Assembly: GCF_026262625.1 (NCBI RefSeq)
Contig: NZ_SHNN01000001.1
Coordinates: 310,001-374,000 of the forward strand
Direction: 5' to 3'
DNA from: Candidatus Litorirhabdus singularis
GTDB taxonomy: Bacteria > Pseudomonadota > Gammaproteobacteria > Pseudomonadales > Halieaceae
Length of the DNA stretch: 64,000 nucleotides
Positions within the stretch are counted from its first letter, which is position 1; the number at the start of each line of letters is the position of its first letter. A program made the translations under genes and the position numbers. Below are positions 3,618 to 36,501 of this stretch, piece after piece. The notes under the pieces are model-generated. The model was not told where the DNA came from and did no database searches. It saw only the letters and a list, made by a program, of their open reading frames with translations.

Positions 3618-3646
3618 AAAGACACGCATAACAATGCGCCCGCAAG

Positions 3647-4882: not shown

Positions 4883-4908
4883 GGGAGTATCTCTCTTCTG
4901 TCAGTGGG

Positions 4909-5307
<399 letters not shown>

Positions 5308-15955: not shown

Positions 15956-15959
15956 TCTT
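15941..15959. promoter_or_regulatory. Fur-box-like site upstream of feoA
   Basis: The 19 bases GGTAATAAGAATCAATCTT match the Fur consensus GATAATGATAATCATTATC at about 14 positions. The site covers the -35 of the feoA promoter and also the stop codon of the RND gene upstream. Iron repression of ferrous uptake is the expected logic. Confidence 0.6.
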
Positions 15960-18900: not shown

Positions 18901-19104
18901 GTCTTCAATAGGAATACCCACCGTCTGCTCCACAACTTCTGCAGAGGCACCGGCATAGCGGCCACTGATAACAATGTTCGGCGGCGCTATAGCCGGGTAT
19001 TCAGCGACCGGCAATTGCTCAATGGCGATCAGGCCACCCAGGGTCAATACAATCGATATCACCAGGGCAAATTTGGGGCGATTGATAAAGAAAGCGCTGA
19101 ACAC
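15952..19104 (-). CDS. RND multidrug efflux permease, HAE1 (AcrB/MexB-like)
   Basis: A 1050-residue inner-membrane proton/drug antiporter. The first helix is preceded by [19 protein letters not shown]. The TM4 proton-relay pair Asp-Asp is in [15 protein letters not shown], and the TM10 Lys is in [16 protein letters not shown]. The two periplasmic porter loops have normal size. It starts 4 bases after its adaptor gene. No outer-membrane channel gene is linked, so it probably uses a TolC encoded elsewhere. The last codons overlap the Fur-like box for feoA. Confidence 0.94.
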
Positions 19105-19108
19105 CGTC

Positions 19109-20236
19109 TTATTCCTGATTCTTCAAGGCCAGAGACCGGCTCTTCACCCGCAACCCGGGGCGCACCTGCTGCAGACCACGAACAATGATCTGCTCGCCTT
19201 CGTCCACGCCTTCTTTCACGACTACCTTCTCATCAATTCGTTCGCCCAGCGCCACGTTACGGCGCCGCACCATGCTATCGGCATCGACCGCGAGGGCGAA
19301 GCTGCCCTGCTGGTCAACCTGCACCGCTGCCTGCGGAATAAAGATCGCCTCTACCAGATTGGTTTGTTCCAGGATCACCCGCACATACTGCCCGGGCACC
19401 AGCAGTCCACCGGGGTTGGGGATGATGGCGCGCGCCTCCAGGGTACCGGTTTCTTCAGATATTCGATTGGCAAAATAATCGATACGACCGACATGTGGGT
19501 AAAACACTCGATTAGTCAGCTCCAGCGACACTTCCAGATCGCTGGTATCCATGGTGTGAAGATTTTTGGTGGCGCCCAGACGATTAGACATGGCCATCAC
19601 CAGTACGTTTTCAGAAATCTGGAACAGTGCCTGAATCGGATCGATGCTTACCAGGGTGGTTAAGGTTCCGGACGTGGGCCCGATGAGGTCGCCTGGACTG
19701 TGCACGCTGCGACCGATGCGGCCCGATATCGGCGCCAGAATTCGGGTAAAGCCGAGATTAACTTCCGCCGTTTTCAGCTGTGCCTGCGCGCCGGCAATAC
19801 TGGCGTCAGCCTCCAGCTTCTGAGCGTTGAGCTTATCCATCTCTGATGCAGAGATGGCGCCCTTGGGCAGCAACTCACGGCCACGGTTATAATTCAGGTT
19901 AGCCACCGCCTGTGCAGCATTGGCCTTGGCCAAGTCAGCTTTGGCGCGCGCCATTTGCGCCTCGTACTCGGCCGGGTCTATCTCGTAGAGCAGGTCTCCA
20001 GCGGCCACCATTTGGCCCTCTCGAAATGCACGCGACGTCATATAGCCGTCCACCCGGGCCTGAATCATCACGTCTTCCCGGGCGTGCAAGCGACCTACGA
20101 AAGAAGTCTTGGGCTGGTAGGGTTCTAACACTGCCTCATCCACCACCACTTCAACCATCTGTGGCAGAGGTAGTTCCTGGCCACAGGCGCTAATCCACAG
20201 TAAAAGAGACAAAAGGCAGAAACGAAATGGGCGCAT
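19109..20236 (-). CDS. RND periplasmic adaptor (membrane-fusion lipoprotein)
   Basis: A 375-residue AcrA/MexA-type adaptor. The start is ATG 20236 rather than the longer frame to 20302, because it gives a lipoprotein signal [19 protein letters not shown] with a lipobox ending in ISAC. Lipoyl/barrel-sandwich halves ([33 protein letters not shown]) flank an alpha-helical hairpin. It is the first gene of the pump operon. An imperfect inverted repeat lies upstream at 20277-20309. Confidence 0.92.
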
Positions 20237-20276
20237 AGCGAGGAGTCCTAAGTGAGAAACAGACTCTAACAGAGCA

Positions 20277-20309
20277 CTGACAACGATAATAGCGGTCGTC
20301 AATTGTCAG
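20277..20309. promoter_or_regulatory. Inverted repeat upstream of the RND operon
   Basis: CTGACAA (20277-20283) and TTGTCAG (20303-20309) are exact 7-base arms about 40 bases upstream of the adaptor start codon. ACGA and TCGT extend the dyad imperfectly inside. It could be an operator for a local repressor, but no regulator gene is beside the pump. Confidence 0.35.
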
Positions 20310-21613: not shown

Positions 21614-23164
21614 CTATTTGGTGCGGGACAGCATGTACTTGGCTACAGCCAAACGAGTTTCGGGGTCGAGATAGTTTTGCGGCGGCATCTCAGGGTAGTC
21701 AGGACGCTTCTTGATAGGCGCATTAATGTACTCGGCCAGACCTTCCGGATTGTCCATGTAGAGGGCTTGAATTATCTGCACCGGCGGGCCAATCATGCGG
21801 CCGGTGTAAGTATGGCAGCCGGCACAAATTCCAAGGTAGGCTATTTGACCACGATCTTCGGGAGCGATCTGTCGCGGCGCCACATCGGCCAGCAGATAAT
21901 TACCAATAGGGTACGTATTGGCAAAATCACACTCGGCAAAATCATCCGTACCCACAGTCACATAACGGTGCCGATTGATAATGCAGCTATCTTTGGTCGG
22001 GCCAATTACCAGAATATCCGGGTTACCGGTTTTCAACTCGGTAAGCATAATCGCTTTAACTGCATCAATCGTCTCGTAGCCGTTGTTCATCATCACGTTG
22101 TTCAGAATTTTCAGGCCGTCTGAATTAGGATCGGCATCCGGATCCACAGTGACATTGGTTAACTGCGCCGCAGAGTTGTGATCCACCGAGATAATACCGA
22201 TGGTCTTGTTACCGGTAATAATATTGCCTTCGATCACCACATCATCAGCTGCCATCACCATAATGCCGGTGCCCGCAGGAATACCACCCACCGTAGAACC
22301 CGGCGCACCGAAGTTCGGCGTGTTGTTATTGTGTACCCAGTTATTACGAATAATCACATCGTAGGTGGTTTTGATGGGTAGACCCGGCGTGATAAACGCC
22401 AAAATGCCACCGGTGTTGTCATGTACGTAGTTGCTCTCAACAATCGCGTGGCGGGAGTTTTCAATTTCAATACCCGCAACCGAATCAAACACGTGGTTGA
22501 AGGCGACATGCACGTTATCGCTCATCCCCACATAGATAGCCGCATCTTCAATCCCGGAAATCACGTTGTGCTCTATGACGCCGTTTTTACCCAACTGCGG
22601 GAAAATACCGTAAACACCGGTATCTACGATGATATTGTCGCGAATCTCATAGTTGTTGCCGGCCTGGCTCATAATCGCATTACCCTTGTAACGGGTAATA
22701 TAGAAGCCCTCGACCACAATATTGTTACCTGAAAAAAGAATGGCGTCGTTGAGAGTTCCCTTGCCATCCAGCACCGGGCGCTCACTCCCCACCACCATGC
22801 CCAGCAGGCGAATACCGTCTTTATCGATATACACCGTTTCACTGTAATCGCCCGGCATAACCCGAATAGTGGTGCCCGGCTCAGCGGCCTTAACCGCATC
22901 CTGAATCAATTGCCCCGGCTCAACGGTTACCACCACATCTGACTGCGGCGGACCGGCCACGAACTTGCTGGAGCCGCTGGTTACCAGACTGCCTGCTGCA
23001 GCCCCTTCGCTAGAATCCGAATCACTGGAAGGCGCGGCACCGGTATAACCAGCGCCATCGCTATTAGCCGTCACAACAACCGGGGCATCGTTACCGGCGG
23101 CCCCCAAATAGATGCCGATCGCGAAGGCAAAAACCAGACCGGCGATAGCGAGTAGTTTATTCAT
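21614..23164 (-). CDS. Right-handed beta-helix protein fused to cytochrome c
   Basis: A 516-residue exported protein. Residues 1-24 are a membrane anchor or signal (LLAIAGLVFAFAIGIYLGA), and residues 30-72 form a Ser/Ala/Gly-rich linker. Residues about 78-375 are a NosD/pectate-lyase-type parallel beta-helix with repeated NNWVHNNN / GNIITGN / HNVISGI strand-turn units. A C-terminal cytochrome c domain has CAGCH near residue 447 and a likely axial Met in PEMPP. The beta-helix resembles the TIGR03805 group, whose function is unknown. It overlaps the di-haem peroxidase gene by 8 bases and so belongs to its operon. I infer a periplasmic redox scaffold or a redox-linked polysaccharide-binding protein. 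Confidence 0.85.
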   Translation of the reverse strand: MNKLLAIAGLVFAFAIGIYLGAAGNDAPVVVTANSDGAGYTGAAPSSDSDSSEGAAAGSLVTSGSSKFVAGPPQSDVVVTVEPGQLIQDAVKAAEPGTTIRVMPGDYSETVYIDKDGIRLLGMVVGSERPVLDGKGTLNDAILFSGNNIVVEGFYITRYKGNAIMSQAGNNYEIRDNIIVDTGVYGIFPQLGKNGVIEHNVISGIEDAAIYVGMSDNVHVAFNHVFDSVAGIEIENSRHAIVESNYVHDNTGGILAFITPGLPIKTTYDVIIRNNWVHNNNTPNFGAPGSTVGGIPAGTGIMVMAADDVVIEGNIITGNKTIGIISVDHNSAAQLTNVTVDPDADPNSDGLKILNNVMMNNGYETIDAVKAIMLTELKTGNPDILVIGPTKDSCIINRHRYVTVGTDDFAECDFANTYPIGNYLLADVAPRQIAPEDRGQIAYLGICAGCHTYTGRMIGPPVQIIQALYMDNPEGLAEYINAPIKKRPDYPEMPPQNYLDPETRLAVAKYMLSRTK

Positions 23165-24398
23165 GATAATTCACCTGTTGTAGTCTTATGGGTATGGGTA
23201 AACGAGCAGTGGCGAGCTCTGCCGCAGCAAACCCCGCTGGATTATCTATGGGCGGCAGCCCTGAGGGCAACCGCTTCGGAATGCGTGGTTTGAATGCTTC
23301 ATCGGTCAACGTGCCAAGAAAATCGACTACCCGATCCATTTCATCGCTGGTCAGGTTAGGCTCCCAAATATGCCAGTGCAGGTGCATGGAGACACCTTCG
23401 GGCACGGCGTGGCCACGCCCCTTATTGTAAAACTCAACCGTATCACGCAGTGACTCAAATCGTCCCGAATGCATATAGGGAGCAGTCTGCGTAATGTTGC
23501 GCAAGGATGGGACTTTGAAGCCACCTTTTAATTTGGCGGCATTGAACACAGCTTCGGCACCAATATCCAGTGGCAAGCCGTCAGGTTCCGGCGCACCAAT
23601 CACAGCAATCTGTTGGTTGGTAAATAGCGGCGGCGTATGACATTCAGCGCAGCGTGCAACAAACGAGCGAAATACGTTGAGGCCCTCAATCTCCGGCGCG
23701 GTCAGGGCTGCGTGATAACCCTGGGCGTAACGGTCATAGCGGCTATTCAAAGAAATCAACGAAGTCTGGAAGGCCGTCAACGACATATAAATCTGACCCA
23801 AACTGATTTCATCCAGTTCACCACGGGGAAAAGCCTGACGAAACATCTGCTGATAGATCTCATTATCGCTCAGCGTCGCCAGCAGCTGCTGCGGCGTATT
23901 GGCCATTTCTTCGGCTGAGAACAGCGGCCCCTGGGCTTGCTCTTCCAGCGACTCGGCGCGACCATCCCAAAACAGGCGCTGCAGAAAAGCCACGTTCCAT
24001 AAGCTGGGTGCGGCGCGGGTCATTTCGTGGCCACCCTTGCCCATAGAGCGCGCCATCCCGTCGCTAAAGCCCTTGTCGGGATGATGACAACTGGCGCAAG
24101 ACATACTGCCATCGCCCGACAATGCCGGATCAAAAAACAGAAAACGACCCAGATCAATTTGCTCGGGTGTGAAGCCATCGCGATGTGGCGGCAACGAGGT
24201 TTGCGTGCCGCCAACTCCCTTATCTTGCAGGGAGTCGTAGAACTGATACATATTGACCAATTCACAAGTGCCCTGCACAGTTTTCTTGAAACTGGGCGGG
24301 CAATGGTCGCTGAGCACAAACTCGTCCGCCGGACTCGCTGCGGCTACAGCCGGCAGCAGGAACAGTGTCAGTAACGAGAAGGCCAGTAACCGCAGCAT
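23157..24398 (-). CDS. Di-haem cytochrome c peroxidase / MauG family
   Basis: A 413-residue periplasmic protein with signal peptide MLRLLAFSLLTLFLLPAVAA. Two haem sites are present: CASCH in GSMSCASCHHPDKGFSDG (about residue 100) and CAECH in FVARCAECHTPPLF (about 250). The family block APSLWNVAFLQRLFWDGRA is complete, as is VPSLRNITQTAPYMHSGRF. It could reduce peroxide or, like MauG, carry out oxidative modification of a partner protein. The partner candidate is the beta-helix/cytochrome fusion encoded next, overlapping by 8 bases. Confidence 0.92.
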   Translation of the reverse strand: MLRLLAFSLLTLFLLPAVAAASPADEFVLSDHCPPSFKKTVQGTCELVNMYQFYDSLQDKGVGGTQTSLPPHRDGFTPEQIDLGRFLFFDPALSGDGSMSCASCHHPDKGFSDGMARSMGKGGHEMTRAAPSLWNVAFLQRLFWDGRAESLEEQAQGPLFSAEEMANTPQQLLATLSDNEIYQQMFRQAFPRGELDEISLGQIYMSLTAFQTSLISLNSRYDRYAQGYHAALTAPEIEGLNVFRSFVARCAECHTPPLFTNQQIAVIGAPEPDGLPLDIGAEAVFNAAKLKGGFKVPSLRNITQTAPYMHSGRFESLRDTVEFYNKGRGHAVPEGVSMHLHWHIWEPNLTSDEMDRVVDFLGTLTDEAFKPRIPKRLPSGLPPIDNPAGFAAAELATARLPIPIRLQQVNYHE

Positions 24399-24403
24399 AA
24401 AAA

Positions 24404-25027
24404 CTACTGCGCTGAGCCCTGGCTGACAATGAAGGCCAGCACATCAGCAACAGCCTTATCGTCTGGCAATACCGTGGCCATCATCTTCATCTGCCGACCA
24501 TAGCGATCATCGGCGTGGTTTCCGCGGATACCGGCCGCATAATTCTGTAACTGCCGAGCCAGATACTGACGATCCAAGCCTGCCAGTCGCGGTGAATTTA
24601 AAGCCGGATTACCCTGTGCCTGCGCACCGTGACAGGCACCGCAATAGGCGTTGTACTGATTCTCCCCATTGCGCATATCCGCCTCCAGCGTCTCGGTAGA
24701 AACCGCAGCCGGGAGACTCGCCAGATATGCAGCCACGGCTGTGACGGCCTCATCGCTGGCCAAAGTACCGGCCATACCACGCATCTGGGCGCCAAAAGTA
24801 TCTCCAGGCGCTGCGCCGCGTATACCCGACTTGAAATGGTTCAATTGACGCGCGAGATAGTCGGCGTCCTGACCCGCCAGCGCGGGCGAATTCATGGCTG
24901 CTCTACCCTCCCCGGCAGCCCCATGACAGGAAGCACAGATACCGTATGCGACTTTGCCCGCGGCCAGATCCTGGGCCGTGGCAAGTTGGCTCATCAACAC
25001 GCCTAACATTAAAATAATCAGTTTCAT
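24404..25027 (-). CDS. Di-haem cytochrome c (c4/c553 type)
   Basis: A 207-residue periplasmic cytochrome. ATG 25027 was chosen because AGGA lies just upstream and the protein begins with a signal peptide (MKLIILMLGVLMSQLATAQ). Two similar halves carry CASCHGAAGEG and CGACHGAQAQG. Each half repeats the pattern SPALAGQDADYLARQL / SPRLAGLDRQYLARQL, so the protein is an internal duplication. It is first in the three-gene cytochrome operon, 5 bases before the peroxidase gene, and is the likely electron donor or acceptor of that module. Confidence 0.93.
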   Translation of the reverse strand: MKLIILMLGVLMSQLATAQDLAAGKVAYGICASCHGAAGEGRAAMNSPALAGQDADYLARQLNHFKSGIRGAAPGDTFGAQMRGMAGTLASDEAVTAVAAYLASLPAAVSTETLEADMRNGENQYNAYCGACHGAQAQGNPALNSPRLAGLDRQYLARQLQNYAAGIRGNHADDRYGRQMKMMATVLPDDKAVADVLAFIVSQGSAQ

Positions 25028-25213
25028 AAATCCTATCCCTGTTTCTAGCAGCCTGTAAGTGGTGATCGAAATAGACCGCACGAACCCTCACCCGTCATCG
25101 CTCCAAGTGTAGCCGTTGGGTGCCATTTGAACGGAAACGGACAGCGATTTCTGCGCAATTGTAAGAATCCGTCAGATTTTGCGTCGATTTTTGAGAAAAA
25201 TACTGAGAACTGC

Positions 25214-26275
25214 TTATTTTTTGAGCGATTTTCGATAGGCGGTAGGAGTCATACCACGGGTATCTTTGAACGCCTTATTAAAGGAACTCAGCGAACGAAA
25301 CCCCGCATCCATGGCAATAGTCAGCACCGGCAGGCTCTCGGCGGCGGGATCACCGAGGCGTTGTGCGGCCTCGGCAACACGGAAGCTGTTGAGAAAATCA
25401 TTGAAGTTGCGGTAACCCAGCCCCGCATTAATAGCCTGCCGCAAACGGTATTGCGGCACCGCCAGGCGCTCAGCCAGTTGACCCGTAGTCAGGCTCATTT
25501 CACGGTAAACCTGTGCCTCATCCATCAACCGCTGCAATCTGGACATCAGTTCCGGATCTGGCGCCGACTCATGCGCCATCACGGCAGCATCCGCCGGCAC
25601 CGGCGTCGACGTCTGATCACTCGGCATCAGCATCGGTACGCGCGCGCCAGAACGAAACAGCCCAGCCGGCTTATACTGCAATAACAACACGTTCATTCCC
25701 AGCAACACCGGTCCCAAAGGCAGGTACTGGGCCAGCGCAAACCACTGTTCACCATCAAACAGCCACTCACGCATCAGAATCATGGCGAACAGGTAACTGC
25801 CATTGATCGCCACAAACCACCAGCGTAGCCGGCGCCTTGACTCGACCAGATCGACCTGCCAGAACTCGGCGACTACCCACAAAGTGAGCCCCAACAGCAC
25901 AAACTCCAGTAATTGTGGCAGCGTAAAAAATAGATAAAGCCAACCATCGGAGACCTCGGCCAGCTGGCCCAGCACCGGCAGCAATACCGTGATGACCACT
26001 AGACCCACTTGCCAGCCGCGCAGCCGGAAATGGTCATCGAAAACGTAGGCGCTGAACAACCAGAACAGCCCTGGCACCCCCGTGGACAGCGCGCTGGAAA
26101 AGCCGGACCAGGGTAACGGCAGCAGTGGCGTCAGCAAAAAGCAGGTCACTGCCAGCATCAGCAACACGAACAGGGTCTCACCCACCCCCCGTTCGCCCCG
26201 CAGCCCAACCAATATCATACTCAGGCAGACCTGAGACAGGCCAAAGGCAAGCGCAAAGATCAACAGCGTATCCAT
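25214..26275 (-). CDS. AraC-family regulator with N-terminal membrane domain
   Basis: A 353-residue protein. The first 190 residues hold about six to seven membrane helices (LLIFALAFGLSQVCLSMIL through LPLGPVLLGMNVLLLQY), followed by a linker and a C-terminal AraC double HTH (about 255-350; LTTGQLAERLAVPQYRLRQ, then SFNKAFKDTRGMTPTAYRK). ATG 26275 is 2 bases after the stop of the barrel gene; GTG 26290 would give 5 more residues. A membrane-bound AraC regulator suggests sensing of a membrane or periplasmic signal. Being last in the ABC operon, it probably regulates it. Confidence 0.88.
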   Translation of the reverse strand: MDTLLIFALAFGLSQVCLSMILVGLRGERGVGETLFVLLMLAVTCFLLTPLLPLPWSGFSSALSTGVPGLFWLFSAYVFDDHFRLRGWQVGLVVITVLLPVLGQLAEVSDGWLYLFFTLPQLLEFVLLGLTLWVVAEFWQVDLVESRRRLRWWFVAINGSYLFAMILMREWLFDGEQWFALAQYLPLGPVLLGMNVLLLQYKPAGLFRSGARVPMLMPSDQTSTPVPADAAVMAHESAPDPELMSRLQRLMDEAQVYREMSLTTGQLAERLAVPQYRLRQAINAGLGYRNFNDFLNSFRVAEAAQRLGDPAAESLPVLTIAMDAGFRSLSSFNKAFKDTRGMTPTAYRKSLKK

Positions 26276-26277
26276 AC

Positions 26278-27528
26278 TCAGAAATACCACGCCAGCTGGG
26301 CAAAAATCGACGCCCCCTGACTCAAGCGCTGACCCTCAACAGCGGTTTCGATACCGCCATACTCGGTGCCTGCGCCACCCACTGGCAGATTGAGCGCCGC
26401 CAGCAGCTGCCAGTTCTGACTTAAGCTCCAGGTACCCACCAACTGCGCCAAAAAAGACTGGTCGGCCAGATTAACAAAAGCCGTAGGTGCCAACGTCAGC
26501 AGCGGCGTCACTTCAATTAACACAGTGCCAGCAACATAGTGGCGGCCCAGCGTGAACAACTCACCTCGCGCCAAGCGCAACAGTAAATCGGGATTACTCT
26601 GCAAATCCTCGGTACTGTATTCACCTTCGGGCTGACCAAAACCGTTGTAAAAATATTCCACCACGCCGGACATATTCCTACCCCATCCAACCCAGGAATA
26701 AGAAAGATTGGCCACTGCGCTCCAGTATTCGTCCAGATCAGTTTCGGTGAACGTGACATCACCGCGCAACACCGCACCACCCAGCGGCAAGCTGCCGCCT
26801 ATGCCGACAATCATGTCGTCGTAATGCTCGGCCAGTAACAGGTCGTACTCGGCGTCTCCGCTAAAGCCGTGGTATTTAACCGATGTGGAATTGACCGCTT
26901 GGTCGAGATCGCCCTGTTCGTCTCTTCGCACCACGTACACCGCCTGAAGGTCGTCACCGTTATCACGCAGATACTGGGTATAGGCCATATCATCGCCAGA
27001 CTTGTATTCTTTATCCACGGCGGCAGGATCAAACGGGTTAAAGATGTCCACGGGGTTATAGAGCAGGCCATTGCCCCAGCTAATCGCCTGTCGACCCACC
27101 CGCGCTACCCATTTTTCACCGCGCCAGGATAGCGCCAGCCGGTCAAGGCGGTGGGAGATGACATAGTCATTACCTTCGCTGAGTACGGCGGTCAGGTCCA
27201 TCAGACGCCGGTCGTCATTCTGCACACCGCCGGGGCCGGGGAGCAGTGTGGAAACGTCACGCACCAGAGTCAGACTATCGCCCGCCTGCCCAATCAGCTG
27301 ATAATCGGCGTTGACACCCCATTGCCCGCGCTGAGCCTTGAAATTGAGGCGCAGATCACCGCCCTGATCAAAGGCCGGGCTATCGATCGCATTAAGAAAC
27401 ACGCTGTCATCGGGAATGTCAGCAACGCCTAAGCGCAGTTTGGTATGACCTCCCTCTAATACGGAATCCGCCTGCGACGGGGCCGCAACGAATAACAGCA
27501 TCAACAGTGACAGACGCGTCCACCGCAC
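26278..27528 (-). CDS. Outer-membrane beta-barrel protein of the ABC operon
   Basis: A 416-residue exported protein with a short signal peptide (MRWTRLSLLMLLFVAAPSQA). The mature part has alternating strands, and the C-terminus ASIFAQLAWYF ends in Phe, as barrels do. The block VGRQAISWGNGLLYNPVDIF is a recognisable outer-membrane family motif that I associate with DUF1302-type proteins, without certainty. GTG 27528 directly follows the ATPase stop (zero gap). I infer it is the outer-membrane partner of the ABC/LolA-like path. Confidence 0.75.
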   Translation of the reverse strand: MRWTRLSLLMLLFVAAPSQADSVLEGGHTKLRLGVADIPDDSVFLNAIDSPAFDQGGDLRLNFKAQRGQWGVNADYQLIGQAGDSLTLVRDVSTLLPGPGGVQNDDRRLMDLTAVLSEGNDYVISHRLDRLALSWRGEKWVARVGRQAISWGNGLLYNPVDIFNPFDPAAVDKEYKSGDDMAYTQYLRDNGDDLQAVYVVRRDEQGDLDQAVNSTSVKYHGFSGDAEYDLLLAEHYDDMIVGIGGSLPLGGAVLRGDVTFTETDLDEYWSAVANLSYSWVGWGRNMSGVVEYFYNGFGQPEGEYSTEDLQSNPDLLLRLARGELFTLGRHYVAGTVLIEVTPLLTLAPTAFVNLADQSFLAQLVGTWSLSQNWQLLAALNLPVGGAGTEYGGIETAVEGQRLSQGASIFAQLAWYF

Positions 27529-28239
27529 TCAGCTCGGCTCCGCAGCCGCTGCAGGTTCCTGTAAGTCGTCGCCCACTATCTGGCCGTCTACCATACGTAT
27601 CAAACGTCGGCAGTAAGCCATGACGCGAGTGTCGTGGGTAGCAATAATAAAAGTGATATTGCGAGTCTGATTAAGCTCGATAAATAGATCCATTAATTGC
27701 GCGGAGGTTTTACTATCGAGATTGGCTGTGGGCTCATCGGCCAGCACCAAGGCTGGTTCGCTGACGATCGCCCGGGCTACCGCCACGCGCTGCTGCTGCC
27801 CACCGGAAAGTTGTGCCGGCAAGCGTTGCTCCATACCAGCTAGCCCCACTTCAGCTAGAATCGCCATGGCCTTGTCCCGACGTTGACCCGCGGGCACCCC
27901 TTGCACCTGCATCACAAACTCTACGTTCTCCAGGGCAGACAACACCGGTATCAAGTTATACGCCTGAAACACAAAGCCGATACTGTGCAGGCGCATCTCT
28001 GCCAACTCGGTCTTACTCATCTGGTCTACCCGCAGCTCGCCAATACTGATCGAACCACTATCGGGCTGGTCAAGACCGCCGATAGCATTCAGCAACGTGG
28101 TCTTGCCCGAGCCAGAGGGTCCCGACAGACACAGAAAGGAACCTCTTTCGATCTCCAGACTGACTTTATCAAGGCCGGTAATCGTGGTGTCGCCCTGGCT
28201 AAAGGTTTTGCAAAGATCCTTACAACTGACAGATGCCAT
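27529..28239 (-). CDS. ABC transporter ATP-binding protein, LolD/MacB type
   Basis: A 236-residue cytoplasmic ATPase. Walker A is [18 protein letters not shown], the Q-loop is in [14 protein letters not shown], the signature is [14 protein letters not shown], Walker B is [12 protein letters not shown], and the H-loop is IIATHD. The [16 protein letters not shown] text is typical of LolD, MacB and FtsE-type mechanotransmission ABC systems. It lies 8 bases after the second permease gene, and its stop abuts the barrel gene. Confidence 0.93.
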
Positions 28240-28247
28240 AACGAGCC

Positions 28248-29480
28248 TCAGTTTTTATTCAGTGCAGTAATAGGGTCAAACCGCGAAGCCCGCCAGGCGG
28301 GCAGCAGGGTCGACAGCAGCCCCAGTACCAGCACCACCACAGAGGACAGCAACATATCGTTGATATGCAGCACCGGGTACAAGGTTGTCGCCATACCAGC
28401 CATTTCCGCCGCATCGGCAATGCCGGAAAGATCGATGCCCGATTGCAGAGGCAGAATAGAAAGCACTGCAAGACCGTTACCCAGCAACAAACCAATACTC
28501 AGTAGAATCAGACCTTCCAGCAGTATCTGCGAGAGGATAGTAGCTGGCCGCATGCCCAGCGCCAGCATCAGGCCAATTTCCCGAATCCGCTCGAACACTG
28601 CCATAACCATGGTATTAACCAAACCAAAAGACAACACCACAAAGATTATGACGGCCAGTATCACCACAAAGCCATCCTGTATATTGACGGCCATCTCCAG
28701 ATAGCCGTCGAGCTCACGCCAGTCCTTTACTTGATAGTCTGCTGTCAACGCCGCACGCAGCTCGGGTAGCCATGCGCCAAGGTCACGGTAACCGTTACCC
28801 ACTATCGCGATTTCTGACACTTCAGGGCCCATCTTCAACATTGCCTGCACCACCGCGCGACCGGCGTAAACGAAACGCTCCTCCTGCGCATCGGTGTCAG
28901 CTTCATAAACGCCGACAATCCGAAAGCCGCGCTCAGCCACTTCGTTGTCCGGGTCCTGCGACATCAGCACAACCCGCCGACCGGAGACTGTTTCCAACTT
29001 TTCTAACAAGCTCGCGCCAACCACCAGGCCCGTATCGTCAACCGATTCAAGAAAGCGCCCACTGAGCAGATCAGTGGAATCAAAACCCACCCCCAGTTCC
29101 TGCGCAGGATCCACACCTAACAGAATCACACCGCGATTATCCCGTTCGCTAGAAATAATCGCCGGCACCCGCACTCGGGCACTCCAGGCTTCGATGTCCG
29201 GATTTTCCAGCGCCTGCTGCGCCGCGGGGGAAAGTGCCGCAATGCTGTTAACCACACTGGGGTCATCCAGATAGTCACGGTGGTGCACCTGGGCATGTCC
29301 CGGCAGCATAGTAATGCCGGTGTCGACCATGCCATCGATCATGCCGCGCATCATGGCATTCATAAAAATCATTGCCCATACACCGATGACAATCGCCGCC
29401 AGAATAATCAGCGTGCGGCGATGATTGCGCCATAAATTACGCCAGGCCAAGGTAGTAATAGCGCTCAACGGCAAACTCAC
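28248..29480 (-). CDS. ABC transporter permease, FtsX/MacB type (second)
   Basis: A 410-residue inner-membrane protein. GTG 29480 overlaps the preceding stop by one base (TAGTG) and gives VSLPLSAITTLAWRNLWRN, matching the sister permease. One N-terminal helix (LIILAAIVIGVWAMIFMNA), a periplasmic MacB_PCD-like domain and three C-terminal helices (VVILAVIIFVVLSFGLVNTM onward) are seen. The RIREIGLMLALGMRP motif is the coupling helix typical of FtsX-type permeases. Confidence 0.9.
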   Translation of the reverse strand: MSLPLSAITTLAWRNLWRNHRRTLIILAAIVIGVWAMIFMNAMMRGMIDGMVDTGITMLPGHAQVHHRDYLDDPSVVNSIAALSPAAQQALENPDIEAWSARVRVPAIISSERDNRGVILLGVDPAQELGVGFDSTDLLSGRFLESVDDTGLVVGASLLEKLETVSGRRVVLMSQDPDNEVAERGFRIVGVYEADTDAQEERFVYAGRAVVQAMLKMGPEVSEIAIVGNGYRDLGAWLPELRAALTADYQVKDWRELDGYLEMAVNIQDGFVVILAVIIFVVLSFGLVNTMVMAVFERIREIGLMLALGMRPATILSQILLEGLILLSIGLLLGNGLAVLSILPLQSGIDLSGIADAAEMAGMATTLYPVLHINDMLLSSVVVLVLGLLSTLLPAWRASRFDPITALNKN

Positions 29481-30724
29481 TACACAGCCCTCATCGCTTC
29501 GATAGGGTGCATTCGCTGTAACTTGAGTGCCGGATAAATGGCCGCCAACATGCCCCCGATAAAGACAGTGCCCGGGCCCCAAAACAGACTCAACAGCGAG
29601 GCTTGAGGATACATATATTCATCCATATTGTACTTGGCCGCCGCTTCCGCCATGCCAGCAAACGTAAACCCGGTATGGGCAAACCAGGCCACCAGCAAGT
29701 AGCCAATAAAAATTCCGATAAACATCCCCAGCAGCGACATGATCAAGGTTTCCAGCAACACCAGACGTCCAAGTCGACCCGGCTTGATACCCAGCGCCAA
29801 CATAATCCCGAACTCACGGGTGCGCTCCAGTACCGACATTAGCTGGGTATTCATAACACTGAGCGAGACCACGATAATCAGGATGCCGTACATAAACCAG
29901 GCACTGACCATGTCTGACATGATGGCCTGACGCAGACCGGGCTGCAGGGCATCCCAGTCATGCACCGCCAATTGGAATTGCGCCAGCAACTGTTTTTTCG
30001 ACAGCAGAGTCTCTACCTGCGATTTTCGCGCTGGCACCTGATTCAAATCGGGGAACTCAAACACCAGAGCATGAGCCTGGTCCGGCATACTGAAAATTGA
30101 CTGAAATGTGCCCAGCGGGAGCTGGGCGATACTGCGATCGGCATCAGGCAAACCGGTATCCAGTATGCCCACCACCGTCGCCAACCCGGCGGCAAAAGAG
30201 CCGTCGGCGCCGCTCCCCAACAAAGTAATCTCATCGCCAAGCTGCACTTGCAGATTTCGCGCCAGTACCCGCCCCAGAACAATTTCTTCCGCATTGCTGT
30301 CACTGAGCCAGCGGCCCTCTCCCAATAAACCAGGCAAGCTGGACACCAGCGGCTCATAGGCCGGTTCAACCCCGATCAGCTGAATGCCAAAGGAACGCTC
30401 CTGGCTGGAGGCCAAGGCAAAGCCCTGAGCACGCTGCGTGATACTTTCAATACCCAACTGCTCGCGCAGCATAGCGGTTATCGCGCTGGACCCGGCTATG
30501 GTTTCGCGCATGCGCGGCTCATCCAGATAGCCCTCACGCTGCACCTGCATCTGTCCACTGAAAGCGCGCAGGCTGTTCTCGATCATGGTGTCGTACATAC
30601 CTAACTGCAATGAGATCAGAAACACCAACAGCACGTTGGTAAAGATCATCGCCGCTATCGTCAGCCAGGTGCGGCGCCCATTGCGCCACAGATTGCGCCA
30701 CGCCATGGTCAGTGTGACATTCAC
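29480..30724 (-). CDS. ABC transporter permease, FtsX/MacB type (first)
   Basis: A 414-residue inner-membrane protein with the same plan as the next permease: one N-terminal helix (TWLTIAAMIFTNVLLVFLIS), a large periplasmic domain and three C-terminal helices. The coupling motif is RTREFGIMLALGIKPGRLG. The shared AWRNLWRN-R-RRT start in both permeases shows an old duplication. GTG 30724 overlaps the LolA-like stop (GTGA), so translation is coupled. Together with the ATPase this makes a heterodimeric Lol/MacB-like exporter. Confidence 0.9.
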   Translation of the reverse strand: MNVTLTMAWRNLWRNGRRTWLTIAAMIFTNVLLVFLISLQLGMYDTMIENSLRAFSGQMQVQREGYLDEPRMRETIAGSSAITAMLREQLGIESITQRAQGFALASSQERSFGIQLIGVEPAYEPLVSSLPGLLGEGRWLSDSNAEEIVLGRVLARNLQVQLGDEITLLGSGADGSFAAGLATVVGILDTGLPDADRSIAQLPLGTFQSIFSMPDQAHALVFEFPDLNQVPARKSQVETLLSKKQLLAQFQLAVHDWDALQPGLRQAIMSDMVSAWFMYGILIIVVSLSVMNTQLMSVLERTREFGIMLALGIKPGRLGRLVLLETLIMSLLGMFIGIFIGYLLVAWFAHTGFTFAGMAEAAAKYNMDEYMYPQASLLSLFWGPGTVFIGGMLAAIYPALKLQRMHPIEAMRAV

Positions 30725-31476
30725 TGCCGCGGGTTTCGCAGGCTCGATAGGGTAAACAGGTTACCGGGCAAATCGATATCAAATTCAATGGCGCCGATAG
30801 TTACCTGGGTCCATTCATCCGGTGTCGCGGTTTCGCTCATGCGCATCACGGTGGCCACCGTACGACCGGAGATTGACTTTATTTCCAGAGTGTCCATGGC
30901 TTTCACCAATACGTCCGCCTGATCCCAGAATTCCTGGCGCAGCATCACGAAGTCGTCACGAATCACCACCACCTCCTTACCCCAGACCACAGCAGCATCT
31001 TCATGGGGGATGGCTTCGATAACATAAATGGCGTGTCCGTCCTGCTCCCGCGTCTCCACCAGTCGGTGCTCGTATTGTTCAAGCAGGTCCGTGGCCTTAT
31101 TGATGTCCTTATTGGAAAAGTCACTGCCCATCCAACTCTGATTCATCATTGATGAGGGAACTTTGATAATGCGATTGATGCGGGGCGTATAGCTCCACAT
31201 ATTATTGTCTTTCAACAGGGTACCATTGCCGGCATCTTTGGCTGGACCAGTAACTCGCATCAAGGAATTTTTTGAGCCTTCGGTCCAACCCACCATCGAC
31301 ATAGTGCGTTCCCAGTCGGGGCGGTGGATAGTCATGGTGTTTTCGACATAAGAGGTTGAACCGCGCCAATGGTCCATAGCGAGTCGGATCAGTTCTTTGG
31401 CGTCGGTTGCCTGCGCCGCTGCCCAAGACGATTGCAATAACAACACCAGCGCCAGAATGACGCGTTGGATGTTCAT
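30721..31476 (-). CDS. LolA-like outer-membrane lipoprotein-sorting protein
   Basis: A 251-residue periplasmic protein with signal peptide MNIQRVILALVLLLQSSWAA, cut near AAQA. The mature part (SYVENTMTIHRPDWERTMSM, SWMGSDFSNKDINKATDLLE) matches the PF17131 LolA-like group, a half-barrel that binds acyl chains. AGGAGG lies 9 bases before ATG 31476. Its start overlaps the stop of a 27-codon ORF (ATGA), and its end overlaps the first permease. The likely role is to carry a lipid or lipoprotein from the ABC complex to the outer membrane. Confidence 0.85.
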   Translation of the reverse strand: MNIQRVILALVLLLQSSWAAAQATDAKELIRLAMDHWRGSTSYVENTMTIHRPDWERTMSMVGWTEGSKNSLMRVTGPAKDAGNGTLLKDNNMWSYTPRINRIIKVPSSMMNQSWMGSDFSNKDINKATDLLEQYEHRLVETREQDGHAIYVIEAIPHEDAAVVWGKEVVVIRDDFVMLRQEFWDQADVLVKAMDTLEIKSISGRTVATVMRMSETATPDEWTQVTIGAIEFDIDLPGNLFTLSSLRNPRQ

Positions 31477-31556
31477 AGCCCATACCCTCCTGCGGCCTGC
31501 ATCAGCCAAAATGCTAACACCGCTTGCTTTGTCAGACCATCCTCGCGCTCAGCCAT
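31473..31556 (-). CDS. 27-residue leader ORF, translationally coupled
   Basis: ATG 31556 has a strong RBS (AGGAG, 6 bases before). The ORF codes MAEREDGLTKQAVLAFWLMQ and then AAGGYGL, and its TGA overlaps the ATG of the LolA-like gene (ATGA). A charged N-terminus is followed by a hydrophobic half, so it could be a small membrane peptide or a leader that couples or attenuates operon translation. No homologue is known to me. The RBS, frame and overlap are seen in the sequence; the function is not. Confidence 0.55.
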   Translation of the reverse strand: MAEREDGLTKQAVLAFWLMQAAGGYGL

Positions 31557-31602: not shown

Positions 31603-31712
31603 TCCTATACAAGCCGGCGCAGCTGCACTAAAACTTAACTATGCATTGGGTGTGCAGGCGTGCTTTGACAGCCGCCATCTTTGGCCCGGGCCCCCCGCCC
31701 GGGCCTTTTTTT
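31603..31712 (+). ncRNA. Candidate small RNA between two - strand operons
   Basis: No + strand gene ends here, yet a textbook + strand terminator closes the stretch at 31683-31712. Upstream lie TATAAA (31591-31596) and the CRP-like site. A transcript of about 110 bases would start near 31603. The start is a guess from the -10-like box, and no coding frame looks real. Confidence 0.25.
31683..31712 (+). terminator. Rho-independent terminator reading on the + strand
   Basis: GGCCCGGG and CCCGGGCC form an 8-base stem around a 7-base loop, followed by seven T (31706-31712). On the - strand no T-run follows, so it does not fit as the tamB terminator. It either ends a small + strand RNA or blocks antisense transcription into tamB. 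Confidence 0.8.
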
Positions 31713-31717: not shown

Positions 31718-34700
31718 CTACTCGGCAGAGTCAGTTTCCAAAGGCGGCGCTGTAATATCATCATTTTGGCGGCGACGGATATACCACAGTAAATTCAACG
31801 CGCTGCTGGTGCTTTGATAACCCTCGATATAGAAACGTTCGGTCATACGGTAACGAGCACTGAACGCAGTGCCGGGCTCAAACATGCTGTAACCATACTT
31901 CAGATAGAGGTTGGGGCCAAAATAGCCACTGACCTGCGCCTCCTGACCCCGCTCACCCATTTCAGTCCCCACAGCAAAGCCCTGAATACCAAACTGCTCT
32001 GCGGCTTTACCCAGCTGCTGATTGGCACCCGCCAGACCCATAGCGACGGCCGCCTGTGTCGCTGCGCCATCGGTCGATGTGCCATCGGAATCCATGCGTC
32101 TACCCGTGATGAGGTAATGCATACGCTCTTGCTCTGACATTGCCTCCGAGCTGAACAATTGTACTCTGGGGTCTGCCAGCGGGCCGTCGACCAACACACC
32201 GACTATCGCATCGCCGGCGCTCTGGTGACGTTGGGCGCGCAAGCGCAGGTACGGCTCATCCAATGGACCGCTGAATTCCAGGCGACCCTCGTCTACCAAC
32301 AAGTCTTGGCCGTAAGCGCGCCAGTGACCATCTGCGACTCTAATACTGCCTCTGGCTGACAGCGCACCACCCGCCGCTTTTTCCAACAAAGCCGAGCCGA
32401 ACAGACGTCCTATCAACCCATACCCTTTAAAGCGCACCTCATCACCCAGACTCACTGTAATAGCAGCAGAGAATGGTGCCCCTGAGTCCTCACGTAGTTG
32501 CTCACCCACTATTTGCGTGTCCGCAGATACATTCACAACCTGCGGGCCACCACTGATATGGGATAAATCAACCAGCCCGCTGGGAATGAAAATATCGCCC
32601 TCCAGATGAGTGCGCTGTGCAGAGGCCGATAGCGTCAAGTCTGGCACCAGCTGCAGGGTCACGCCCGGCAGTGGTGCTATGCTCAGAGATTCTGCCACCA
32701 GACGCAACTGTGCCTGCCAATCGTCAGTGCGCCAGTCAATAGATCCACTGAGTTGCGCCGGCCCGCCCTCGGCAGCAACCTGCCCTTGCAGCTGAGCCTG
32801 TTGACCCTGTAAATCCAGCTGCAGCAGTGAGGTGGCAAACAAGCCGGTCTGGCCGATAATGCCCAAACGGGCATCAATAACACGGGCCGCGCCTGTCACC
32901 CAAAGCCCCTCATCTCGACGACTGGCGCGCACCTCAAGGTTCAGTGTCCCGGCCAGTTGCCCTAACTCAGGATACAATTGCAGCAGGGGTGCCATATCTA
33001 TCGCTTCACCGCGTACGGTCAGTGCGCCGCGCTCCACCAACTCGACGCTGCCCTCCAACTCGCCAAAGTCAGCAACCCGTGCTTGCCAGTTAAGCGTCTG
33101 CGTGGACGCGCTACTGCCCGCCAGTTGCAGACGCACATCCGCATTACCGGACAAACTGGCGGTACCGGGTATGACACTGTCAAACCATGTCAACGGCAGC
33201 TTGCCCAGCGCCACTTGCAACTCCGAACGGTCGCCGGCAGAAAAGGTAAAAGCCTCGGTCAAACACAGCCTGAGGTCTGGAGCAGACTGTTCCTGAAAGC
33301 AAACCGGCGGCACGGTCAATCGCCCCTTGTGCCACTGCAGCATACTGGTGGGAGCCTGCTGCAAATGCCATGCCGAAGCCACCGACCAGTTGCTTGCGGG
33401 CAGAATTGTCCTCGCCCGCACACAGCGAAGGTCCAGGGGTTCATCAAACGAGTCCCATTGCAGCTCACACTGCAGTTCCAACTCAGCGCCGGCTAGCTCC
33501 CCTATCGCCACATCATGTGCATTCGCTCTGAGCGTCAAGCTATAGCCCGAGCCAGCCACTTCCAGCGAACCCTGCGCATTGGCCTTACCCACCAACGGTA
33601 AATACCCAGACAGATCAGGCGCAGACAGCAACCATTCCAATCCGCCATCTGTGGGACTGCCTTGTAGCGAGAGAGTAGTTGAAGCCTGCGCCGCCGAGTG
33701 GAGTGGTGAGCCACTGCTTGGCGTGTGCGTAATCTCTACACGCTGTAAACGGAGCGCTTGATTGTCGCCCCAAAGCACCTCTCCGCTCACCTGCAACGGA
33801 TATTGCTGTATCTGTAGCTCGCCGCGTTCAAGCCAAATATGGCCATCACGCAAGCGCGCCAAGGCCATCACCGGCACATCTCCGAGCGCACTTTCAGATA
33901 CCACACCTTCCAGCTCCAGAGTCAGCGATTCAGTATCTCCACTGACATCCGCAGTCAGCGACTGCACCGCCAGTGTGTTGTCACCCACGGTGTAACTGAA
34001 GGGCTGCTGCGCTTCGATCCGGGCTTGCAGCGGCAAGCCGGAGGCCAACGCGGCCACTGTTCCGTTCACATGCAACGGCAAGCCTTCTACTTCATTGGTC
34101 TCAAAACCCAGCTCTCGCACCGTTCCCGACAGCTGCACGCGCAGTGGTTGCTGCAAAGCCTGTAGGGCTGCAGTCAGGCTCACTGCCAACGGATAGTCCT
34201 GAGTAAATCGCACGTCGCCCTGCGCCTGCAACTGGTTACCCTGCAGCTCTAACTGTAATTTTTGGAACTCTAATTGATTCTGACGCAGGTGCACATTGCG
34301 CCCGCTGATCGCTTCCAGCAACAACGTCTCACCCACAGCCCCAGGCACCACCAGCTGTCCGAGTTCGAACATGCTGACCGTTACCGCTAGCGGACTACTA
34401 AACACCGGTAAATCCAATGCTTTAAAGCTGGGCTCCGCTTTGTTGACTACCTCAATGCGGCCTACTTTCAGCGAGGTCAGACAAACCCTCGTTGCCAATA
34501 AACAGGCCGGTCGCCAGGACAGCGTCACATCCGTGGCCTGCACTGCCCAATCGTCCTCGCGCCACGCTACCTGACTGAGCTGCAACCCACTCGCGAGGCT
34601 GCCCGATGTTATGTCCAACTGCAATTGCGGCAACCACCGATTCGCCTGATCCGCGAGCCAACGGCTACCGCTCTCACTGCCACCCAACCACCACGCCGTC

Positions 34701-34798
34701 CCTACCAGAATCAGTCCGGGTACAAGCACCATCAAAGCCAAAAATAGCAGGGCCCTCCAAAAGGCAGACTTTTTGGGAATGGGTGTAGCAGCACTCAT
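31718..34798 (-). CDS. tamB: Translocation and assembly module protein TamB
   Basis: A 1026-residue AsmA-like protein, shorter than E. coli TamB (1259). One N-terminal inner-membrane helix (LLFLALMVLVPGLILVGTAW) is followed by a long periplasmic beta-taco of repeated hydrophobic strands. The C-terminal DUF490 domain (VDGPLADPRVQLFSSEAMSE, then YLKYGYSMFEPGTAFSARYR) contacts TamA. It is thought to carry phospholipid to the outer membrane and assist autotransporter assembly. It overlaps tamA by 4 bases (ATGA). Confidence 0.94.
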   Translation of the reverse strand: MSAATPIPKKSAFWRALLFLALMVLVPGLILVGTAWWLGGSESGSRWLADQANRWLPQLQLDITSGSLASGLQLSQVAWREDDWAVQATDVTLSWRPACLLATRVCLTSLKVGRIEVVNKAEPSFKALDLPVFSSPLAVTVSMFELGQLVVPGAVGETLLLEAISGRNVHLRQNQLEFQKLQLELQGNQLQAQGDVRFTQDYPLAVSLTAALQALQQPLRVQLSGTVRELGFETNEVEGLPLHVNGTVAALASGLPLQARIEAQQPFSYTVGDNTLAVQSLTADVSGDTESLTLELEGVVSESALGDVPVMALARLRDGHIWLERGELQIQQYPLQVSGEVLWGDNQALRLQRVEITHTPSSGSPLHSAAQASTTLSLQGSPTDGGLEWLLSAPDLSGYLPLVGKANAQGSLEVAGSGYSLTLRANAHDVAIGELAGAELELQCELQWDSFDEPLDLRCVRARTILPASNWSVASAWHLQQAPTSMLQWHKGRLTVPPVCFQEQSAPDLRLCLTEAFTFSAGDRSELQVALGKLPLTWFDSVIPGTASLSGNADVRLQLAGSSASTQTLNWQARVADFGELEGSVELVERGALTVRGEAIDMAPLLQLYPELGQLAGTLNLEVRASRRDEGLWVTGAARVIDARLGIIGQTGLFATSLLQLDLQGQQAQLQGQVAAEGGPAQLSGSIDWRTDDWQAQLRLVAESLSIAPLPGVTLQLVPDLTLSASAQRTHLEGDIFIPSGLVDLSHISGGPQVVNVSADTQIVGEQLREDSGAPFSAAITVSLGDEVRFKGYGLIGRLFGSALLEKAAGGALSARGSIRVADGHWRAYGQDLLVDEGRLEFSGPLDEPYLRLRAQRHQSAGDAIVGVLVDGPLADPRVQLFSSEAMSEQERMHYLITGRRMDSDGTSTDGAATQAAVAMGLAGANQQLGKAAEQFGIQGFAVGTEMGERGQEAQVSGYFGPNLYLKYGYSMFEPGTAFSARYRMTERFYIEGYQSTSSALNLLWYIRRRQNDDITAPPLETDSAE

Positions 34799-36501
34799 AT
34801 CAAAGGGCCAAGATAGAAATGCAACTGGAAACCATCATATTCAGGATCATCCACCGGCACGGCGATATCAATTCCCACGGCGCCAACCGGTGTTTTCCAG
34901 CGCACGCCCAGCCCGGCACCCGTGCGCAAAGGTTCGTCATCGTAGATAAACGCCTTGCCGCTATCGACAAAACCGACGATAGCCCAGTTGGGTTTGAAAT
35001 CGTATTGGTATTCTAGCGTCGAAGTTATCAGCTTATCAGCACCGGTCAGCGCTCCCTGCGGATCACGCGGTGAAATACTCTCAAACGAGAAGCCACGGAT
35101 ACTGCCCTGACCGCCGGCAAAAAAACGTTTGGAGGCCGGCACCTGGCTCAGCTCTGCGGCAAATATTTTGCCTACCTCGGCGCGACCCAGCAGCGAATGA
35201 CGCTTCGATAAACGATAGAGATAGGCGCCGTTAACTGAACCGCGCAAGAAGTCGGTGTCTGACCCCAACGCCTCCGCGCTACCCAGCAAATTGATACCGT
35301 AGCGGTAACCATTGCCTTCGTCAGCAGGCAGTACTAACCGGGTCCAGGTTGCCAGGGGCAAGATATAGGTCGTGCTTTTTTCCGATGCACTACCTTGCTC
35401 ATAGACCTCGTATTCAAGGTTTACACCCAGAGAGCGCTTGCTGGTGCGCAGATCATGCTGCCAGATGACACCGGTCTTGGTAAGACTACTGAGGGTGTCT
35501 TCATTGTCCTTACGCTGCCAGGCGACAACCCATTCCAAATACTCTTCGCGGGGATGGTCCCAGGGAATAGTGTAACGGGTACTGATATTCTGCACCGGCT
35601 TGGAGAGCTTGGAGTTTAACGACAAACCGTGCCCACGGCCGTTAACAATAGGCTTATCCCAGTTAAAAACCACCTGCGTACCAGTGTCCGTTGCCACCCC
35701 CAGACCAATGGTATAGCGGTCCTTAGGCTCATCCTGCAAATAAGCCCGCAACAGCATAGTGCGACTATCAATATCGGAGGCAACGCGCACATCGGCACTG
35801 ACAAAGTACCCGGTGTCCAACAGCTGGTATTGCAGGTCCCGCAGCATATTGGGCTGATACCAACCGCCCGCCTCCATATTGAGAAGCTTGTAGATGACAT
35901 CATGGTCTATACGAGTACCGACAAACTCAACCCCGCCTAGCCGGAAACGATCCCCTGTATCAGCGCTCAGTTCGACCTGAGCGGTGCCAGCATTCGGATC
36001 CACCAGTAATACCTGCCGGGTCAACTCAGCCAGCGGGTAACCCTGCTGCTGCGCAGTTCTGACCAACTGTTCCTTGTATGCCTCATAGACGCCATGATTT
36101 AGCGCGGTCACATCTAAAAACGGATGTTCCGTCAACAGCTTCAAAATCACCGGGTCCTCAGCGCCCTCGCCTGTCAATTGCAGTCGTGGCGCAGCCCAGT
36201 ACAACGGCTCCCCCGCTTGCACCACTACCCTCAACGTGCCTTCGTGCACCTGCAAGTCATGGGTAGAATGGTAGTAGCCAAGCGCTTGCGCTGCATCCTC
36301 TACCATCTTGCGAATGCGCACCCGGTAATGGCCGCCAGCCAGATCTGTCGCGGTGATACCTGCCAGAGTAGCGCTGATATTCTCAGCCAGGGCCTGCGGA
36401 GCGCCCTCCACTGCCACCCGAGCAGGCTCGGCGGCTACAAGCTGTGCCGACAGCGCGCTGACAAAGGCAAGCAGAAAACCTAGTTGTCGGACATTAGTCA
36501 G
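34795..36501 (-). CDS. tamA: Translocation and assembly module protein TamA, non-AUG start likely
   Basis: An Omp85-family outer-membrane barrel with N-terminal POTRA domains. The C-terminal barrel has the lid-lock region RFFAGGQGSIRGFSFESI and the terminal GAVGIDIAVPVDDPEYDGF. The first conventional start, GTG 36417, would begin inside the mature protein. Upstream in the same frame lies a good signal peptide (TNVRQLGFLLAFVSALSAQ then LVAAEPARV) with no ATG, GTG or TTG before an in-frame stop at about base 36552. I therefore give CTG 36501, with GGAG 12 bases upstream; this makes 568 residues against 577 in E. coli. The start codon is inferred. The alternative is a real loss of the start, or a sequence error. 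Confidence 0.85.
   Translation of the reverse strand: MTNVRQLGFLLAFVSALSAQLVAAEPARVAVEGAPQALAENISATLAGITATDLAGGHYRVRIRKMVEDAAQALGYYHSTHDLQVHEGTLRVVVQAGEPLYWAAPRLQLTGEGAEDPVILKLLTEHPFLDVTALNHGVYEAYKEQLVRTAQQQGYPLAELTRQVLLVDPNAGTAQVELSADTGDRFRLGGVEFVGTRIDHDVIYKLLNMEAGGWYQPNMLRDLQYQLLDTGYFVSADVRVASDIDSRTMLLRAYLQDEPKDRYTIGLGVATDTGTQVVFNWDKPIVNGRGHGLSLNSKLSKPVQNISTRYTIPWDHPREEYLEWVVAWQRKDNEDTLSSLTKTGVIWQHDLRTSKRSLGVNLEYEVYEQGSASEKSTTYILPLATWTRLVLPADEGNGYRYGINLLGSAEALGSDTDFLRGSVNGAYLYRLSKRHSLLGRAEVGKIFAAELSQVPASKRFFAGGQGSIRGFSFESISPRDPQGALTGADKLITSTLEYQYDFKPNWAIVGFVDSGKAFIYDDEPLRTGAGLGVRWKTPVGAVGIDIAVPVDDPEYDGFQLHFYLGPLI

Follow-up and report, generated by a model that had tools for sequence, protein, structure and literature searches.

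How do hydrophobic molecules other than lipopolysaccharides and lipoproteins reach the outer membrane? This open question is addressed here through an operon from Candidatus Litorirhabdus singularis, located in a stretch of 64,000 nucleotides (hereafter the window; NCBI RefSeq assembly GCF_026262625.1, contig NZ_SHNN01000001.1, positions 310,001 to 374,000 of the forward strand). The operon encodes a LolA-like carrier, two FtsX-type permeases, an ATP-binding cassette (ABC) ATPase and an outer-membrane barrel, and thereby places an ATP-driven motor beside two poorly understood protein sets, the PF17131/DUF1329 carriers and the DUF1302-type barrels. We propose, with a probability of roughly 0.6, that these proteins constitute an outward ATP-driven route for hydrophobic or lipid-like cargo and an ABC counterpart of the AmeABCD-type systems that are powered by resistance-nodulation-division (RND) pumps; both the cargo and the contacts between the parts are what we infer.

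A five-gene operon conserved in proteobacteria

The five genes are encoded on the minus strand from 31476 to 26278, with successive overlaps of 4 and 1 bases followed by gaps of 8 and 0 bases. The carrier (30721-31476; 251 amino acids) has a signal-peptide-like start and was assigned by Pfam to PF17131 (LolA_like). Its gene overlaps by 4 bases that of the first permease, FtsX1 (29480-30724; 414 amino acids), whose stop codon shares one base with the GTG start of the second, FtsX2 (28248-29480; 410 amino acids; delimited from Pfam and sequence; alignment A4 took FtsX2 from a TTG start at 29468). Both permeases exceed the Pfam cut-offs for MacB_PCD and for FtsX. The ATPase of the LolD/MacB/FtsE group (27529-28239; 236 amino acids; ABC_tran, with a LADEPT motif) follows after the gap of 8 bases, and is immediately succeeded by the barrel (26278-27528; 416 amino acids, with a C-terminal Phe), which was identified by its AlphaFold2 (AF2) model. 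With its MacB_PCD and FtsX permeases and its LolD/MacB-like ATPase, the motor is classified from sequence as an FtsX/MacB (type VII) ABC protein.

When 140 genomes of the same family were surveyed (E<=6.5e-71 for a close carrier, E<=1e-5 for the barrel), the carrier was found in 39 and the barrel in 38; 37 genomes have both, two only the carrier, one only the barrel and 100 neither. Such co-occurrence in 37 genomes, against one partner alone in three, places the gene set far beyond chance. Gene order was counted on six-frame profile matches, one or two FtsX genes being accepted, in a family sample (33 stretches from 32 of the 40 genomes with carrier and/or barrel), in the best 80 of 582 confirmed loci from named genomes (a sample that overlaps the previous one) and in 40 distant loci picked from barrel matches in the order, class and phylum. 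The order LolA_like-FtsX-(FtsX)-ATPase-barrel is present in 30 of the 33 family stretches (the misses being two contig ends and one carrier alone), in 65/80 named loci (13 contig ends, two other misses) and in 30/40 distant loci, the rest of which comprise three contig ends, five variants with fused permeases and two others. In these five variants (L356, L358, L359, L366 and L377) both permeases form one protein of about 835 amino acids and the order is LolA-ATPase-FtsX-barrel, while a single permease only was seen in two distant loci, L351 and L378. Contig ends and fusions aside, the failures are a carrier alone (L098), a barrel alone (L386), an ATPase and barrel only (L376), and two loci (L148 and L203) where carrier and permeases are present and then no ATPase or barrel was found. 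The close carrier of L098 (G050:C134) stands without the other four genes, though about 4.8 kb of contig follows.

A sequence-only reading of this DNA had described a tight operon that also included a leader open reading frame (ORF) and an AraC regulator, and had pointed to its gene order as a feature to look for in other genomes. The search bears out the order for the carrier, the two permeases, the ATPase and the barrel, whereas the leader ORF and the AraC gene fall outside the unit (see below). Beyond the family, the barrel profile matched 44 of 293 sampled genomes of the order (E<=1e-5), 33 of 369 of the class and 56 of 398 of the phylum (both E<=1e-10). Most of the phylum-level matches belong to one family (f246) that lies outside the class. 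Six of its loci were fetched, of which five show the complete order and one is cut by a contig end; the operon hence extends to another class of the phylum. Among the named organisms that carry it are Halioglobus pacificus, Seongchinamella, Pseudohalioglobus, Parahaliea mediterranea, Photobacterium lipolyticum and an uncultured Shewanella. The five-gene set is found in many proteobacteria, and its widely kept order makes it possible to delete or transfer the set as a unit.

Relation to the Lol and MacAB systems

The genome harbors a complete canonical Lol set elsewhere: two LolCE proteins at C11:613-617 kb (452 and 382.5 bits, above the equivalog cut-off of 362.45), one LolA match at C11:402 kb (114 bits) and one LolB match at C14:464 kb (123 bits), the operon itself having no LolB. 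Against the same lolCE equivalog, FtsX1 scores 90.5 bits and FtsX2 121.6 bits, both missing the cut-off, and the ATPase likewise misses that of the LolD equivalog (213.8 bits vs 307.75). FtsX1 and FtsX2 share 28% identity, and their identity to the LolC/E proteins of the genome is 20-24%; as far as such low identity allows a comparison, the operon permeases seem to be without an insertion that is present in one genomic LolC/E protein. This insertion presumably marks the site of the hook by which LolC docks LolA. Since canonical LolA, LolB and LolCE lie elsewhere and the operon proteins miss the Lol family cut-offs, the operon is distinct from the Lol pathway and runs parallel to it; the earlier proposal of a parallel envelope path that has a carrier and a barrel to itself thus agrees with the presence of a full Lol set in the same genome.

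A LolD-like ATPase, LolC/E-like permeases and a LolA fold could also be the components of a second lipoprotein-sorting pathway, dedicated to a special lipoprotein subset and using the barrel as an outer-membrane receptor or as an exit for surface display. We consider this unlikely. A Pfam search gave no PF03548 (LolA) match to the carrier at E<=1, and a comparison of the carrier profile with canonical LolA (23 sequences from the same family) reached 4.5%, which is not significant. No cargo gene recurs beside the operon in the 80 named loci (lipoproteins were not sought by signal prediction), and small hydrophobes are what the RND-driven relatives act on. The nearest solved relative of the carrier, LolA3 of Porphyromonas gingivalis, is without the LolA arginine and the LolB leucine and binds LolB only very weakly (PMC13103446).

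Compared with MacAB-TolC, the ATPase and permeases of the operon are separate chains and not one MacB chain, and the best score against the MacB model, that of the ATPase, is 184.8 bits vs a cut-off of 966. No MacA adaptor gene was found among the operon proteins; the adaptor-like genes of the window adjoin RND pumps at 15952-20302 and 53521-58016 (names by reading). These observations and the carrier fold, which is modeled as a lipid groove, make it quite unlikely that the operon is a MacB-like efflux system for toxic amphiphiles, in which the LolA_like protein would stand in for the MacA adaptor and the barrel for TolC. The MacB_PCD and FtsX domains would fit such a system, as would the RND relative AmeABCD, which combines a DUF1302 outer-membrane protein, a DUF1329 protein of the LolA superfamily and a HAE3 RND pump: deletion of ameABCD lowers monoterpene tolerance, and its authors suggested that the periplasmic proteins act in an adaptor-like manner (PMC6394551).

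Structure models of the carrier and the barrel

The PF17131 match covers residues 68-247 of the carrier (161.6 bits vs a cut-off of 30), and its AF2 model has a pLDDT of 85.3. The nearest fold is P. gingivalis LolA3 (9tp6; Z 24.2), followed closely by a DUF1329 protein (4z48; Z 22.5), while canonical LolA and LolB structures from several species score about Z 9-14. According to this model, the carrier would have only its fold in common with canonical LolA.

The barrel model, based on 20 aligned sequences, has a mean pLDDT of 89.8. Of its 19 listed strand segments, 113-118 and 122-136 are read as one broken strand, giving 18 strands; the long loops are on one side and the short turns on the periplasmic side. 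The top Foldseek matches are OmpU, OmpM1, MOMP and AlgE, and VIA-align gave Occ/OprD porins as the best fold (OccAB4: Z 23.6, 312 aligned, root-mean-square deviation 3.3), with AlgE at Z 22.4. The barrel is thus predicted to be an OprD/AlgE-like 18-stranded channel; it may take the place of LolB, as had been suggested. Its most conserved stretch (about residues 145-180, GRQxxSWGNG...NPxDxFNPFDPAAVDxEYKxGDD in alignment A2) probably sits in the loop after strand 5, either on the outer face or turned inward in the manner of the porin L3 loop. In a looser form (Gly-basic-Gln, then a close Trp-Gly), the motif occurs in 27/39 ABC-type barrels, in 9/14 AMIN/DUF1302-type barrels (two of these 14 coming from FtsX loci) and in 8/12 DUF1302 barrels, so that about one third of the barrels are without it in this form. 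It was also detected in one of 357 other ORFs of >=250 amino acids; BLAST identifies this exception, L264_3, as a fragment of a barrel.

FtsX/MacB-type ABC proteins are established as extruders or mechanotransmitters and are not known to act as importers, and it is because the motor belongs to the FtsX/MacB/LolD family that we favor an outward direction. The converse, a retrograde route in which the barrel would admit hydrophobic nutrients and the carrier and ABC protein would pass them to the inner membrane, is for the same reason highly improbable, even though the barrel resembles substrate-specific uptake porins and RND-driven relatives are required or upregulated in the presence of Tween20 and alkanes. 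The Pseudomonas putida proteins PP_0765/0766, with PP_2018/2019, are required on Tween20 and have been proposed to transport substrate (PMC10866462); TOL_3187 of Thalassolituus, which joins MMPL and LolA-like parts, rises 42-fold on C28 alkane and has a gene for a porin-like protein as its neighbor (PMC6304351).

Related carriers and barrels beside other motors

The closest kin of the operon, which the sequence-only reading had missed, are RND-driven DUF1302/DUF1329/LolA_like systems. When the own genome was searched with PF17131, a better match than the operon carrier was a 1079-residue MMPL pump with a carrier domain at its end (185 bits), followed by a DUF1302 barrel (55 bits). Altogether, 19 paralogous carrier loci were compared, 18 from relatives and the one of the own genome: the motor is an RND pump in 15, and FtsX permeases with an ATPase in four. 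A barrel was recognized in 13 of the 19 by profile and in four more by BLAST (L251, L253, L262 and L263), whereas L257 and L258 instead have an unclassified neighbor of 404 amino acids, which in L257 ends in Trp-Tyr-Phe and is without a Pfam match. Two FtsX permeases and an ATPase form the motor of L260 and L266, with the carrier gene on the opposite strand; their barrels match those from RND loci at 100% (E 7e-65, 585 columns, by profile comparison), and that of L266 exceeds the DUF1302 cut-off (41.7 vs 23.2 bits).

The same relation is indicated for the operon barrel. In profile comparisons, 47 ABC-type barrels matched 13 barrels from RND loci at 99.2% (E 3e-19) over 322 columns that extend to the C-terminal residue; with the 20 family barrels by themselves the value was 96.3%, DUF1302 against the same 13 gave 95.4%, and four other barrels of the window gave 0.2%. 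With two doubtful neighbors omitted, the remaining 11 RND-locus barrels yielded 99.2% for the ABC type and 94.2% for DUF1302; a wider 15-barrel set (99.1% and 96.5%, respectively) took in the two FtsX-locus barrels of L260 and L266. A set of only four AMIN-type barrels gave 2.3% with A2 and 0.1% with DUF1302, and we ascribe these early negatives to the thinness of that alignment. By profile, the operon barrel is therefore homologous to the DUF1302-type barrels of RND loci. As carrier and barrel are both homologous to those accompanying MMPL/RND pumps, including pumps of the own genome, the motor is the part that differs.

A tree of 48 carriers (29 of the operon ABC type, 15 RND and four other ABC; quick method, SH-aLRT support only) places the operon ABC type on one side of a branch (support 94), and L257 and L258, which are ABC-driven, within the RND group beside L262 (support 99). 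Two changes of the RND vs ABC label are needed, both forced by well-supported branches, against a mean of 12.9 for shuffled labels; long branches are flagged for L260 and L266. If this tree is right, the motor has been exchanged at least twice, L257 and L258 being counted on their carriers alone. The new point is that the carrier-barrel pair is common to systems with exchangeable motors. Such exchange reveals which two parts stay together, and hence where to seek the carrier-barrel contact. Whether the PF17131 carrier and the DUF1302-superfamily barrel form a general proteobacterial trans-envelope export cassette, repeatedly coupled to unrelated motors (RND/MMPL or FtsX-type ABC) and constituting a third export architecture beside TolC tubes and Lpt/Mla bridges, is in our judgment an evenly balanced proposition.

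The surroundings of such genes in the own genome were observed on C11 and C16. In L209 (C11:437000-452000), the MMPL-LolA_like fusion described above and its DUF1302 barrel are flanked by a long TPR-like protein on either side; upstream lies a PEP-CTERM-like protein and downstream a two-component-like pair (these last names by reading). L211 (own genome, C16:157000-176000) contains two AmeABCD-like cassettes, each about 6.6 kb long, that flank a CoA-transferase-like gene; both comprise an RND pump, DUF1302, DUF1329 and a COG4447-like gene, the order differing between the two (DUF1302 by search, the rest by reading).

Proposed mechanism

In the export route that we favor, the FtsX-type ABC pump of the inner membrane would drive export with ATP. 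The LolA_like carrier would take over the cargo and, to judge from its LolA fold, ferry it in its groove through the periplasm; the same fold is the reason for expecting a hydrophobic ligand. The carrier would then unload at the co-encoded barrel, which would deliver the cargo into or across the outer membrane. This last step is suggested by the gene linkage, by the conservation of the pair across two motor types, and by the barrel-carrier complex predicted for the DUF1302-DUF1329 pair of P. putida (PMC10866462).

Several points weigh against this proposal. The barrel model is porin-like (Occ/OprD) and has no periplasmic docking domain. The barrel of the window scores 18.3 bits against DUF1302 (PF06980), under the Pfam cut-off of 23.2; 15 of 20 aligned barrels, the window barrel included, match DUF1302 at E<=0.1. 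Compared directly, ABC-type barrels and DUF1302 match at 80% over 34 columns only, in the GRQ..WG stretch (70.8% over 34 columns for the barrels of A2), and the L260 and L266 barrels match the operon-type barrels weakly (84.9%, 74 columns). When the ORFs flanking the operon in the 80 named loci were clustered, none of the clusters recurred in more than 12 of them, so that the neighborhood does not indicate the cargo. The functional papers cover the RND kin and not the ABC form, and the support that some of these kin give to growth on a substrate means that they do not settle the direction. For the ABC form in proteobacteria, no description was found among the matches listed in the literature searched, which covered few subscription papers or preprints. 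Finally, deletion of a Flavobacterium johnsoniae carrier called LolA3, a possible relative of ours, was without phenotype (PMC11885536).

Leader ORF, AraC gene and flanking genes

The leader ORF (31473-31556, minus strand; 27 codons) overlaps the carrier start in an ATGA. As a conserved gene it was rejected: no counterpart was found upstream of the carrier in 32 relatives, where no candidate beats the best of 20 shuffles, and we judge it incidental or lineage-specific; the leader is not supported as a general feature. The AraC-type regulator (25214-26275, minus strand; HTH_18, 54.4 bits) begins 2 bases after the barrel, outside the interval in which it had been included. Within the fetched stretches, the nearest relative alone has a related gene next to the operon (L092 and L129, apparently one contig in two collections, both of 5,863 bases with matching positions), and control by a membrane AraC protein is not supported as a general feature. 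In the window, the gene is probably co-transcribed with the operon while remaining outside the conserved unit. Its hydrophobic N-terminal half does look membrane-embedded, as had been suggested; four segments stand out clearly in a simple hydropathy scan, against the seven-helix-like domain proposed, and the predicted helix count is uncertain.

TamB- and TamA-like genes (31718-36417, minus strand; names by reading) lie directly upstream, 161 bases from the leader ORF. They are not a fixed neighbor: in the named loci the full pair recurs only in L144 (at 420-5899, with the operon from 6971), besides which there is a weak partial TamA-like match in L196, and it occurs in 0/33 family stretches. 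At 31683-31705, a strong terminator-like hairpin whose T run is on the plus strand separates tamB from the operon; no plus-strand gene was seen just before it. Downstream of the AraC gene, the minus strand (21614-25081) has genes for a c-type cytochrome, for a protein resembling di-haem peroxidases and for a parallel beta-helix protein that carries a cytochrome tail (names by reading). Relatives of the peroxidase-like and beta-helix proteins directly follow the barrel in L075 and L189 (66% and 69-70% identity).

Comparison with known systems

LolABCDE likewise comprises a LolD-like ATPase, two FtsX-type permeases and a carrier with the LolA fold. However, the carrier, permeases and ATPase of the operon miss the Lol cut-offs, a barrel is present and LolB is not, and the operon coexists with a full Lol set. 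The closest solved carrier fold is again that of P. gingivalis LolA3 (9tp6, Z 24.2). In the same species at low hemin, an MMPL transporter, a hypothetical protein and a gene product named 'outer membrane lipoprotein-sorting protein', of neighboring locus tags, are strongly higher (PMC10470040); the last of these is possibly, though not necessarily, LolA3. The BBJ23-29 cluster of Borrelia also combines a type VII ABC protein, a LolA-like carrier and a co-encoded barrel, but this barrel is Omp85/TamA-like, the permease is proposed to be homodimeric and two TPR proteins are encoded (PMC13078400).

The RND-driven systems are the other term of the comparison. TOL_3187 of Thalassolituus and L209 share a LolA-like domain with the operon (PF17131 in L209, where the barrel is also homologous), but their RND motor is fused to the carrier, and TPR-like proteins stand beside it in L209. 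AmeABCD of Castellaniella defragrans and the P. putida set PP_0765/0766/2018/2019 likewise unite a LolA-superfamily carrier, a DUF1302-superfamily barrel and one inner-membrane motor. Whereas these have an RND-type or multidrug-efflux motor (HAE3 in AmeD), an extra periplasmic partner (COG4447 in AmeC) and a DUF1329 carrier, the operon has a two-permease FtsX-type ABC motor and no RND motor, a PF17131 carrier and no gene for an extra partner.

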